Source of the DNA: Candidatus Contendobacter odensis Run_B_J11
GTDB taxonomy: Bacteria > Pseudomonadota > Gammaproteobacteria > Competibacterales > Competibacteraceae
Assembly (NCBI RefSeq): GCF_000531125.1
Contig: NZ_CBTK010000135.1
Span: 1-55,206 of the forward strand
Direction of reading: 5' to 3'
Length of the DNA stretch: 55,206 bases
Made by a program: the position numbers and the translations under genes. The notes beneath the pieces are model-generated. The model did no database searches. It was given only the letters and a program-made list of their open reading frames with translations, and was not told the DNA's origin. Shown here piece after piece: positions 34,329-38,335 of the stretch (positions are counted from its first letter, which is position 1; each line of letters starts with the position of its first letter).

Positions 34329-37300
34329 ATGAAAACCGCGCACTTGCAACCCATCAGCTGTTCGACCATAGCCGCCTCCGTACCGATGCAACCCGCATCC
34401 TGGGATATTTGGGATCAGAAATATCGCTTGAAAGCCAAAGATGGGCAGGTGCTGGATGAAACCATTGACGGTACTTATCAACGAGTCGCTAAAGCGCTGG
34501 CGGACGTAGAAATCACCCCGGAACTGCGTGAACACTGGGGCGATAAATTTTTGTGGGCGCTGCGGCATGGCGCCATCCCGGCGGGGCGCATCATCTCCAA
34601 CGCGGGAGCCTGGGATCATAAGCCGGCCACCTCGACCATCAACTGCACCGTGTCCGGCACAATTACGGATTCGATGGACGACATTCTGCGCAAGGTGCAT
34701 GAAGCTGGATTGACGCTGAAGGCGGGATGCGGCATCGGCTATGAGTTTTCCACGCTCCGCCCTCGCGGGGCCTATGTGTCGGGAGCCGGTGCGTACACGT
34801 CAGGGCCGCTGTCGTTCATGGACATCTACGACAAGATGTGCTTTACCGTCTCGTCGGCGGGCGGACGCCGGGGCGCCCAGATGGGCACTTTCGACATCGG
34901 ACACCCGGATGTCATGGAATTTATCCGCGCCAAACGTGAAGCGGGTCGGTTACGACAATTCAACCTGTCGTTGTTGATCACCCGCGAATTCATGGAAGCG
35001 GTCAAACAGGACCAGGATTGGACGCTGGCTTTTCCGCTGTTGGCTAAGGAAGCGGCGCAGGATCAGATTGATCTCAACAATGCTGATCTCATTATTTGGC
35101 GCCAGTGGCCAACTCACGATGGCTTGATTAGTAATGAAGCTGGGCAAGTCGCATGCAAGGTTTATCGGAAAATCCGCGCCCGGCGGCTTTGGGATGCCAT
35201 CATGGCGTCCACTTATGACTACGCAGAACCGGGATTTATTCTCATTGATGAAGTGAATGAGATGAATAACAACTGGTTTTGTGAAAATATCCGTGCCACG
35301 AATCCCTGCGTCACCGCCGACACTTGGGTTCAAACCGCACAAGGGCCACGACAAGTGAGTACGATTCTCGGAAAACCATTGGATTTACTCGTCGATGGGC
35401 GGATTTATCATTCCGGCGAAGAAGGTTTTTTTAAAACCGCAACCAAAGCGGTGCTGAAATTAACTACCGAAGAAGGCTTTAGTTTGCGCTTAACGAACGA
35501 CCATCGAGTGCGCAAGGTCGTTCGTCATAACCGTTATCACTTGGAAACCCAGTGGTGTGAAGCGGCTCATTTGGCGCCCGGCGACTGGGTATTATTGCAC
35601 AACCACCGTGAGCACTCTAGTTGGCAAGGTCAATACACCGAACAGCAAGGTTATTTGTTGGGGCTATTGGTCGGCGACGGCACTCTAAAAGACGATAAGG
35701 CGGTATTGTCGGTATGGAAATCGGCCGCTGTTAGTAATGGTGAAACTATTAATTCAGGCGTTGAGGCGATCATGGCGAAAGTGCTGTGCGCCACTCAAGC
35801 ATTTAACAAGCGGGCGGATTTTAAAGGCTGGACTGAAATAGCGGGACGCAATGAGTTTCGACTCAGTTTTGCCGGCTTAAAAGACTTGGCGCAAGAAATC
35901 GGCATGTCTCCAAATCATAAAGTCATTACACCGGTCATGGAAAGTGCTTCCAGCAAATTTTACCGAGGTTTTCTACAAGGTTTTTTTGATGCCGACGGTT
36001 CTGTGCAAGGCAGCCAGGAAAATGGCGTCAGCGTGCGTTTGGCGCAATCTGATCTAACGCGCCTTGAAGCGGTGCAACGCATGCTGCTCCGCTTAGGCAT
36101 TGTGGCGAAGATTTACCGTAATCGTAGACCGGCGGGTATTGCCCGGTTACCGAACAGCCATAGAGAGCTTGCCGATTATGCAATCTCGGCGCAACACGAA
36201 TTGGTCATCAGTGGTGATAATTTACCGATCTTTGAACAATTAATCGGTTTTACCGACAGTAACAAAGCGTTTCAACTCAAATTCGCCTTAAAAAATTACC
36301 AACGCGCGTTAAACCGCGAGCGTTTCGTAGCGACCGTTGCCGCCGTGATTCCGGATGCTTATGAAGATGTCTACGACGTTCAAGTACCTGGAATCAATAC
36401 CTTTGATGCGAATGGTCTACATGCGCATAATTGCGGCGAACAGCCGCTGCCCCCCTACGGTAGTTGCTTGCTCGGCTCGATCAACCTGACCCTATTTGTT
36501 CAAAATCCGTTCACCGATCACGCCCGCTTCGATTGGGACACTTATCGCGACGTGGTGGCGGTTTTTACCCGCATGCTGGACAACGTGGTGGAAATTAACG
36601 GTCTACCCTTAAGCGAACAACGCCAGGAAATCGTCAGCAAGCGCCGTCACGGCATGGGTTATCTGGGTCTGGGTTCCACGTTGACGCTATTGAATATGGA
36701 GTACGGTTCTCCCGAGTCATTGGCATTTACCGAGCAAGTCACTCGTGAAATGGCCTTGGCGGGTTGGCGGGTTGCCTTGGAACTGGCCAAGGAAAAAGGA
36801 CCTGCGCCGATCCTCGAACAAGAATTCACCATCACCACCCAGATGCTGCATCAACGCCCGGAAATGGTTCGGGATGGCTACCAGAAAGGCGACCCCATTC
36901 AAGGCAAGGTGCTTCATGCACGCTATAGTCGCTATATGCAGCGGATCGCTGAGATCGCCCCGCAACTGGTCGAGGAACTGGCCCAGGTTGGGGCGCGTTT
37001 TACTCACCACACCTCGATTGCTCCGACCGGAACGATTGCCCTGTCTTTAGCCAACAACGCCAGCAACGGTATCGAACCCAGTTTTGCTCATCATTACGCC
37101 CGCAACATTATCCGTCCCGGTAAAAAATCCAAGGAAAAGGTGGATGTGTTTTCATTCGAGTTGCTGGCTTACCGACACCTAATCAATCCCACGGCCATGC
37201 CTGATGCCGAAGGGGTTGAAAACCGACTGCCCCCGATCTTCATCACCGCAGATGACGTGACCCCGAAGCAGCATGTGGATATTCAGGCCGCCGCCCAGAA

Positions 37301-37613
37301 GTGGATTGATTCCTCGATTTCCAAGACGGCCAACGTCCCAACGGATTTTCCTTATGAAGCGTTCAAGGACATTTACCTGTACGCCTATGAGCAAGGTCTC
37401 AAGGGTTGCACGACCTTCCGCTTTAATCCGGCGGCATTTCAGGGCGTGCTGGTCAAGGAACAGGATTTAGCCAATACCCGCTACCGTTTCGTGCTGGAAG
37501 ATGGATCGGAGATCGAGGCCAAGGGCAACGAGGAAATTGAGTATGACGGCGAGATTCACTCGGCGGCGAATTTGTTTGATGCCATCAAGGAGGGGTATTA
37601 CGGGAAATGGTGA
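34329..37613 (+). CDS. nrdJa: class II (adenosylcobalamin-dependent) ribonucleotide reductase, catalytic part, with intein
   Basis: Reduces ribonucleotides to deoxyribonucleotides with a cobalamin-generated thiyl radical, independent of oxygen. The 1094-residue precursor contains a 375-residue intein (residues 327-701); the exteins join to about 719 residues, close to Pseudomonas NrdJa. Seen: INCTVSG (redox Cys), SAGGRRGAQMG, and across the intein the motif NP-[intein]-CGEQPLPPYGSC, equal to the radical-site N-x-C-x-E motif; then HHTSIAPTGTIALSLAN. The tail that finishes the reaction is encoded by the next gene, nrdJb. Two NrdR boxes lie 140-190 bases upstream. The start could also be the Met at 34386. 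Confidence 0.95.
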   Translation: MKTAHLQPISCSTIAASVPMQPASWDIWDQKYRLKAKDGQVLDETIDGTYQRVAKALADVEITPELREHWGDKFLWALRHGAIPAGRIISNAGAWDHKPATSTINCTVSGTITDSMDDILRKVHEAGLTLKAGCGIGYEFSTLRPRGAYVSGAGAYTSGPLSFMDIYDKMCFTVSSAGGRRGAQMGTFDIGHPDVMEFIRAKREAGRLRQFNLSLLITREFMEAVKQDQDWTLAFPLLAKEAAQDQIDLNNADLIIWRQWPTHDGLISNEAGQVACKVYRKIRARRLWDAIMASTYDYAEPGFILIDEVNEMNNNWFCENIRATNPCVTADTWVQTAQGPRQVSTILGKPLDLLVDGRIYHSGEEGFFKTATKAVLKLTTEEGFSLRLTNDHRVRKVVRHNRYHLETQWCEAAHLAPGDWVLLHNHREHSSWQGQYTEQQGYLLGLLVGDGTLKDDKAVLSVWKSAAVSNGETINSGVEAIMAKVLCATQAFNKRADFKGWTEIAGRNEFRLSFAGLKDLAQEIGMSPNHKVITPVMESASSKFYRGFLQGFFDADGSVQGSQENGVSVRLAQSDLTRLEAVQRMLLRLGIVAKIYRNRRPAGIARLPNSHRELADYAISAQHELVISGDNLPIFEQLIGFTDSNKAFQLKFALKNYQRALNRERFVATVAAVIPDAYEDVYDVQVPGINTFDANGLHAHNCGEQPLPPYGSCLLGSINLTLFVQNPFTDHARFDWDTYRDVVAVFTRMLDNVVEINGLPLSEQRQEIVSKRRHGMGYLGLGSTLTLLNMEYGSPESLAFTEQVTREMALAGWRVALELAKEKGPAPILEQEFTITTQMLHQRPEMVRDGYQKGDPIQGKVLHARYSRYMQRIAEIAPQLVEELAQVGARFTHHTSIAPTGTIALSLANNASNGIEPSFAHHYARNIIRPGKKSKEKVDVFSFELLAYRHLINPTAMPDAEGVENRLPPIFITADDVTPKQHVDIQAAAQKWIDSSISKTANVPTDFPYEAFKDIYLYAYEQGLKGCTTFRFNPAAFQGVLVKEQDLANTRYRFVLEDGSEIEAKGNEEIEYDGEIHSAANLFDAIKEGYYGKW
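35307..36431 (+). mobile_element. LAGLIDADG homing-endonuclease intein in NrdJa
   Basis: A 375-residue in-frame intein. It starts with Cys1 (CVTADTWVQT) after the extein Asn-Pro and ends with His-Asn (GLHAHN) before the extein Cys. Splicing block B is LTNDHRV, block F is VYDVQVPGINTFDANG, and the two LAGLIDADG helices are YLLGLLVGDGTL and FLQGFFDADGSV, both with their catalytic acidic residue. All residues needed for splicing are present, so it should be active. Codons here are visibly richer in A and T than in the exteins, a sign of separate origin. Confidence 0.95.
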
Positions 37614-37648: not shown

Positions 37649-38335
37649 ATGCCTATCAAAATAGATAAAAAAATCGTCGGCTACAGCGTCGTCAAACCCG
37701 ACGACGTTTCACCCACACCGGCAAGCAACCCCAATCCAGCCGTGCAGCACATGCACGAAAGCGTAGCTCGACCGGATGTTTTGAAGGGCGCGACCTACAA
37801 GGTCAAAACTCCGCTATCGGATCATGCGCTGTACATCACCATCAACGACATCGTGCTGAATCCAGACACTGAACACGAAGTGCGACGACCGTTCGAGATT
37901 TTCATTAATTCCAAGGCGATGGATCACTTTCAATGGATCGTCGCCCTGACTCGCATCCTTTCAGCCGTCTTCCGCAAGGGCGGCGATGTCACCTTCCTGG
38001 TCGAGGAAATGCGCTCAGTGTTTGATCCAAAAGGCGGCTACTTTAAGAAGGGTGGCAAATACATGCCTTCGCTGGTCGCGGAAATTGGCGACGTCATCGA
38101 ATCGCACATGCGATCCATGGGGCTATTTAAGGAAGACGGCTTGGATGGGTATCAGCGCGAGTTCATCGAAAAGCAGCGCAATAAATACGAGATCGGGATG
38201 AAAGCTGTCGAGGATGCCGGTGAAAGCACCTTCCCGCCAGAAGCAACCCTGTGCGGCAAGTGCCACACCAAAGCCGTGATCGTGATGGACGGCTGCCTGA
38301 CTTGCCTGAATTGCGGCGATTCCAAGTGTTCCTGA
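37649..38335 (+). CDS. nrdJb: class II ribonucleotide reductase, C-terminal part
   Basis: 228 residues that correspond to Pseudomonas NrdJb: a domain of the TSCPD type (HALYITINDIVL, RPFEIFINSKAMDHFQW) and a C-terminal zinc/redox tail with CGKCHTK, CLTCLNCG and a final SKC. In single-chain NrdJ the same parts form the C-terminus that re-reduces the active-site disulfide. It follows nrdJa by 35 bases with GAGG-like sequence before its ATG, so the two are co-expressed. Confidence 0.92.
   Translation: MPIKIDKKIVGYSVVKPDDVSPTPASNPNPAVQHMHESVARPDVLKGATYKVKTPLSDHALYITINDIVLNPDTEHEVRRPFEIFINSKAMDHFQWIVALTRILSAVFRKGGDVTFLVEEMRSVFDPKGGYFKKGGKYMPSLVAEIGDVIESHMRSMGLFKEDGLDGYQREFIEKQRNKYEIGMKAVEDAGESTFPPEATLCGKCHTKAVIVMDGCLTCLNCGDSKCS

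Follow-up and report, generated by a model that had tools for sequence, protein, structure and literature searches.

The window, the 55,206-nucleotide stretch of Candidatus Contendobacter odensis Run_B_J11 DNA that was analysed, carries on its forward strand the gene nrdJ (nrdJa; 34329..37613), which encodes a precursor of 1094 residues, intein included. The open reading frame scores 552.6 bits against TIGR02504 (cut-off 399.95) and 409.3 bits against PF02867, and it also matches the structure of Thermotoga maritima NrdJ (PDB entry 1xje). By these matches it is assigned as a class II ribonucleotide reductase (RNR), NrdJ, and as a member of the adenosylcobalamin-type family the enzyme would depend on that cofactor. 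Alignment with intein-free relatives, which covers residues 1–327 on the N-terminal side, delimits an N-extein of residues 1–326 (34329..35306, forward strand), ending in Ala-Thr-Asn325-Pro326, and a C-extein of residues 702–1094 (36432..37613, forward strand), starting with Cys-Gly-Glu-Gln-Pro-Leu. The C-terminal part of the enzyme is encoded separately downstream by an nrdJb-like gene (37649..38335, forward strand) with a TSCPD domain (PF12637) and a cysteine-rich tail, which matches NF006417 at positions 588–759 and the C-terminal part of PRK08665.

Between the exteins lies an intein of 375 residues (Cys327–Asn701; 35307..36431, forward strand), beginning with Cys1 and ending in His374-Asn375, as supported by the codons, the relatives and a structure model. 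The codons read AAT CCC / TGC GTC at its start and AAT / TGC GGC GAA at its end, and together with the alignment of relatives and the in-frame insert of 375 residues they confirm the position between Pro326 and the extein cysteine, Cys702, given in an earlier note on this DNA. The interval proposed there, 35301-36437, does hold the intein but is two codons too long on either side, as it spans the Asn325 codon through the Gly703 codon. The splicing domain contains the block B motif TxxH (intein residues T63-N-D-H66; 35493..35504, forward strand), of which T63 and H66 are conserved in all 77 parsed genomic loci. The two LAGLIDADG motifs, both within the PF14528 match and on the forward strand, are LLGLLVGDGTL with Asp124 (intein residues 117–127; 35655..35687) and FLQGFFDADGSV (intein residues 222–233; 35970..36005); both acidic residues are kept, in GLLVGDG and GFFDADG. 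The intein scores 79.8 bits against LAGLIDADG_3 (PF14528; cut-off 22.5), while the match to Intein_splicing (PF14890), which extends to residue 701, reaches 27.9 bits (E 2.4e-6) and lies below the curated cut-off of 35.8. A sequence search of solved structures with the intein gave no convincing match (best E 0.18). An AlphaFold2 model built from 36 sequences has a pLDDT of 91.0 and a pTM of 0.91, and the 16 best PDB matches found for it with Foldseek are all intein endonucleases, the best folds being TliVMA, PI-SceI and PI-PfuI at TM-scores of about 0.5–0.6. The Cys at position 1, the TxxH motif, the terminal His-Asn and the Cys at +1 are class 1 features. Judged from sequence, the insert is a class 1 intein with an apparently intact LAGLIDADG homing endonuclease, and splicing is predicted.

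The thiyl radical of RNRs sits on Cys439 in Escherichia coli NrdA and on Cys322 in T. maritima NrdJ. In the phmmer comparison with the latter, the end of the N-extein falls on residues 320–322 and the start of the C-extein on residue 320 onward, so that both Cys327 and Cys702 are placed on Cys322 of the NPCGE motif (1xje). When the exteins are joined and aligned with residues 1–612 of E. coli K-12 NrdA, N325, C327 and E329 fall on N437, C439 and E441, that is, Asn325, Cys702 and Glu704 of the precursor correspond to Asn437, Cys439 and Glu441. Cys702 (36432..36434, forward strand) hence serves twice, as the +1 nucleophile in splicing and as the residue that bears the thiyl radical in the mature enzyme, as the earlier note had proposed, and the alignment with the Thermotoga protein puts the catalytic cysteine nowhere else. 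The same NrdA alignment places C106 of the joined extein on C225; owing to gap placement, Cys462 of the E. coli protein does not fall on any extein cysteine. The C-extein cysteine of YGSC falls on a T. maritima NrdJ cysteine in the phmmer alignment, which we take, in number and role, to be residue 333. The splitting of the Asn-x-Cys-x-Glu motif by the intein is borne out by the codons and by both alignments, and the separation of Asn325 and Glu704 before splicing is indeed 379 residues. Since splicing is needed to bring the active-site Asn, Cys and Glu together, the precursor should very probably be inactive. In the literature passages on RNR inteins that were covered, which come from neither Dassa 2009 nor the SPbeta papers of 1998, no statement was seen that the +1 residue coincides with the thiyl-radical cysteine.

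Among GTDB species genomes, 484 relatives were confirmed, the best 80 of which were kept; with 16 relatives from IMG/VR and seven loci of the window's family (window included), 103 loci were compared. The collecting patterns included CVTADTWV, FDANG[FL]H and shorter forms, and because they cover the intein's own termini, conservation there is biased, partly by construction; the extein flanks lie outside them. A first parse retrieved 98 of the 103 loci, with a pattern that itself required NP|C and C[GAS]E, and left out L040, L075, L091, L124 and L125, in which it failed to locate both ends. As this parse demanded the site, the flanks were checked again by tblastn alignment alone in all 103 loci. 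In this pattern-free check the N-flank reads xNP in 102 of 102 readable loci and the C-flank C[GAS]E likewise in 102 of 102, L040 and L124 each being short of one end in the stored DNA. Among the parsed loci Cys occupies intein position 1 in 98/98, the collecting and the parsing patterns both containing that Cys; the terminus is His-Asn in 96/98 and Gly-Gln in 2/98, and both LAGLIDADG motifs with [DE]G are found in 88/98. Eight interrupted proteins from the survey were classified with NCBIfam: TIGR02504 is the best match for L112 and L126, PRK06948 comes first and TIGR02504 second for L090 and L118, and four viral proteins (L113, L117, L119 and L121) match the RTPR family TIGR02505. The intein copy of L126, on a viral contig, has only 268 residues and lacks both LAGLIDADG motifs in their usual form; it is probably a mini-intein at the same NP/C bond.

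The insertion site is shared with inteins that are already known. Arhodomonas aquaeolei, which is listed among the hosts of the rir1-b intein allele (available text of PMC4071816), possesses two PF02867 genes: the domain is continuous in one, while the other encodes an NrdJ with an intein at the same NP/C bond that is 62% identical to that of the window. The allele name would accordingly denote the NP/C site, and the window intein fits rir1-b in its place within NPCGE, directly after Pro and ahead of the radical Cys, and in its kinship to the Arhodomonas member, from which it differs in its new host lineage. The BnrdE intein of the Bacillus phage SPbeta (NC_001884) interrupts the same bond (SNL/CVTGET...VTGN/CSEV), but is only 21% identical in the alignment, lacks the penultimate His, and resides in a protein annotated as a class I-type RNR (bnrdE), whereas the host of the window intein is of class II. 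By the account given in the accessible part of one report, Azotobacter chroococcum nrdJa contains an intein with LAGLIDADG-3 at amino acids 321–690 (PMC4465626). These three cases, that of Azotobacter as reported, rule out a novel insertion site. The window intein is thus a widely travelled mobile element in a new host lineage, at a site where inteins have long been known to insert, and is a neat but ordinary example. The split NrdJ-1 intein, whose name we take to place its host among the NrdJ proteins, presumably sits one residue downstream of the radical cysteine. Unlike the window intein, it is split and has Ser at +1 (as far as described in the available text of PMC13123727). The DnaBi1 intein of Mycobacterium smegmatis resembles that of the window in that its +1 residue belongs to the active site of the host protein as well: it lies in the P-loop, the serine of which doubles as a splicing residue. 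It differs in being a mini-intein of class 3, in having a helicase as its host and in its measured sensitivity to H2O2, which blocks splicing through a disulphide (available text of PMC6195587). The R2 intein of Aquifex aeolicus also parts RNR catalytic residues, but occupies another site, in the class I radical-generating subunit, where splicing joins Leu229 to Cys230 (PMC8772380, in the part available).

In the family of the window organism the site could be assessed in 33 of 37 genomes, window included (G001, G002, G006 and G034 were not judged). Seven of them carry an intein at this site, namely G000, G008, G013, G019, G023, G016 (whose contig stops within the element) and G028 (in one copy of two); the other 26 lack it. 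The G028 assembly contains an uninterrupted NrdJ alongside a fragment of an interrupted one (G028:C53, G028:C137), reflecting a strain mixture or two genes. Within the genus the window organism is the sole carrier (1/5), the site being empty in all four other assessable members. The host protein is closest to these intein-free members (88.6% identity with L010). Compared with Methylobacter marinus (L037), the intein is 70% and the exteins are 74% identical; compared with the family members L003 and L004, the values are 58–59% and 84–87%. In the intein tree the window falls with Methylococcales and L049 in a clade of 14 rows (SH-aLRT 100), whereas in the extein tree its protein groups with its own genus. 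AU tests reject the grouping of the window with Methylococcales on extein data (p 2.9e-81) and that of the window with L003 and L004 on intein data (p 0.001), for groups that were named after the identities had been seen. Because the intein groups with Methylococcales and the host protein with intein-free members of the genus, these comparisons point to a horizontal arrival of the intein, most likely from close kin of the lineage that Methylococcales carry today, the direction of transfer being unrooted. The GC3 of the intein (0.48) is below that of all 26 chosen open reading frames of the window (0.55–0.79), but the intein also has a lower GC3 than its own extein in 15 other loci compared, which makes GC3 weak evidence of origin. 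No clear tract of co-conversion with Methylococcales is seen in the flanking DNA. Among annotated phages, 17 records match the intein, all below 60% identity and thus without a close donor, and the plasmids searched gave two distant matches.

In the window genome, which is 99.53% complete, a single PF02867 gene is found, and there is no match to PF00268 (NrdB) or PF13597 (NrdD); in 14 control genomes PF02867, PF00268 and PF13597 match in 11, 7 and 6, respectively. On these results a backup RNR is rejected for this genome. Since NrdJ is the only RNR found, splicing is probably essential for growth of the bacterium. PF00268 was also searched in 49 intein genomes, comprising 41 selected by eye among the 80 named loci and eight from the family search, including that of the window. 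NrdB is present in 22 and absent from 27. Among the latter, window included, none has NrdD, and PF02867 is represented by one gene in 24 and by two in G028, G086 and G094; the set includes incomplete genomes (G042, 62%; G023, 88%). With a single PF02867 gene and neither NrdB nor NrdD in 24 genomes, it appears that many bacteria rely entirely on the splicing of nrdJ. In such bacteria, where the only RNR detected carries the intein, growth itself offers a natural readout of splicing.

Taken together, the data are best explained by a homing parasite at a long-occupied site, acquired horizontally and probably spliced constitutively, rather than by a demonstrated regulator, a reading to which we give a probability of roughly 0.9. 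A class 1 intein with a LAGLIDADG endonuclease would have entered nrdJ at the peptide bond that precedes the invariant radical cysteine, the endonuclease presumably targeting the stretch of DNA that encodes unchangeable residues. By analogy with class 1 inteins, Cys1 would attack the carbonyl of Pro326, Cys702 would then take over the N-extein, and cyclisation of intein Asn375 would be followed by a Pro326-Cys702 peptide bond that restores NPCGE. An imprecise deletion of the intein, or a mutation of the +1 residue, would cost the host its only detected RNR. In our reading the intein persists because its +1 nucleophile coincides with the radical cysteine, and not as a regulatory device; it offers a clean case of intein persistence, with a +1 cysteine that the host cannot change in an indispensable gene.

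The earlier note had also considered splicing as a control point for DNA precursor supply. Such conditional splicing would make the intein a switch, in which oxidation of the Cys1-Cys+1 or Cys1-Cys84 pair pauses the only RNR and dNTP levels track the redox state. This has a precedent in the disulphide-blocked DnaBi1 intein, and a catalytic-cysteine disulphide in an intein precursor figures in a title cited by PMC4031507. That NrdJ is the sole RNR of the genome also agrees with it, as does the retention of Cys84 in 75 of 77 parsed genomic loci; however, Cys84 is Cys in only one of 14 viral loci. Patchy, horizontally acquired inteins, with the gene uninterrupted in most assessable family members, and an intact homing endonuclease speak against a switch. 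In the redox trap, a Cys at −3 is able to pair with Cys1. Residue −3 is Thr in the window and in 86 of 102 readable N-flanks, and Cys in only four of 102, so that a Cys-3/Cys1 trap is absent here. The proposal of a control point consequently finds no support, and we consider conditional splicing very unlikely. A more specific form, which is slightly less likely again, builds on the double role of one cysteine in the only RNR detected: if true, Cys1/Cys702 (or Cys84) of the precursor would be oxidised reversibly, and the intein would thereby tie the appearance of active RNR to the redox state, as a beneficial checkpoint on DNA precursor supply.

Nor does the intein of the window resemble a domesticated or dead element, inherited vertically with an inactive endonuclease and merely tolerated by its host. 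A decayed case does occur at the same site: the copy in G023 (L009), of 321 residues, has decayed endonuclease motifs with preserved splicing residues, keeping 31 of 74 conserved endonuclease columns and 56 of 60 splicing columns, so that its endonuclease seems to be dead while the splicing domain survives. Homing elements are expected to behave in this way: they arrive with an endonuclease, which may later decay, whereas splicing has to be maintained. The window intein, in contrast, retains both motifs with 71 of 74 endonuclease and 59 of 60 splicing columns, and its tree conflicts with that of the exteins; we consider domestication very unlikely. A chaperone-like benefit, by which the intein would hold the active site open while the protein folds and so improve the mature NrdJ, as proposed for the R2 intein of A. 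aeolicus, is scarcely credible: A. aeolicus R2 produced from the intein-bearing gene contains more iron and has twice the activity, its intein likewise parting active-site residues (available part of PMC8772380), but in NrdJ the loop concerned is not a place of metal-centre assembly, and most close relatives lack the intein.

A sister intein lineage at the identical NP/C bond ends in Gly-Gln instead of His-Asn, and comprises L006 (G013), L137–L142 (G042, G201, G114, G118, G184 and G227) and L143 (G203). The inteins of G013 and G042 are related to the His-Asn lineage over their whole length (hhalign probability 99.8), with 25–35% identity to the members compared. A class-wide search of 185 genomes found six full-length members (G042, G114, G118, G184, G201 and G227), with C-flanks that read GQ/CGEQ or are GQ/CGEQ-like, as in the incomplete G203 copy. 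The Gly-Gln terminus is present in 7/7 complete copies (G013 included) and 8/8 C-termini, and all seven complete copies have both LAGLIDADG-type motifs. The nearest outsider among the inteins compared is that of SPbeta, which ends in Gly-Asn (36–39% identity). Inteins with a C-terminal Gln are already known from CIV RNR and PolII (available text of PMC4031507). At the same bond, the Gly-Gln and His-Asn lineages offer a matched pair for studying splicing without a terminal Asn and a penultimate His.

Further inserts were observed elsewhere. In the genus of the window organism, an intein-like insert of NrdJ in G007 (L013) ends in His-Asn before CGIGYEF, at a different site, and a large insert lies at about the same place in G002 (G002:C232:2403-4424). 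A class I-type RNR large chain (G020:C1:52152-54875) has an in-frame insert of ~1.1 kb after PF02867 position 72, which matches the window intein weakly. The NrdJ frames of L032, L059, G114:C38, G118:C32 and G227:C1 exceed 1500 residues, leaving room for a second intein. Finally, G011:C10:31226-31924, elsewhere in the G011 genome, shows a weak intein match (precursor query residues 362–598) within a frame of 1332 residues.
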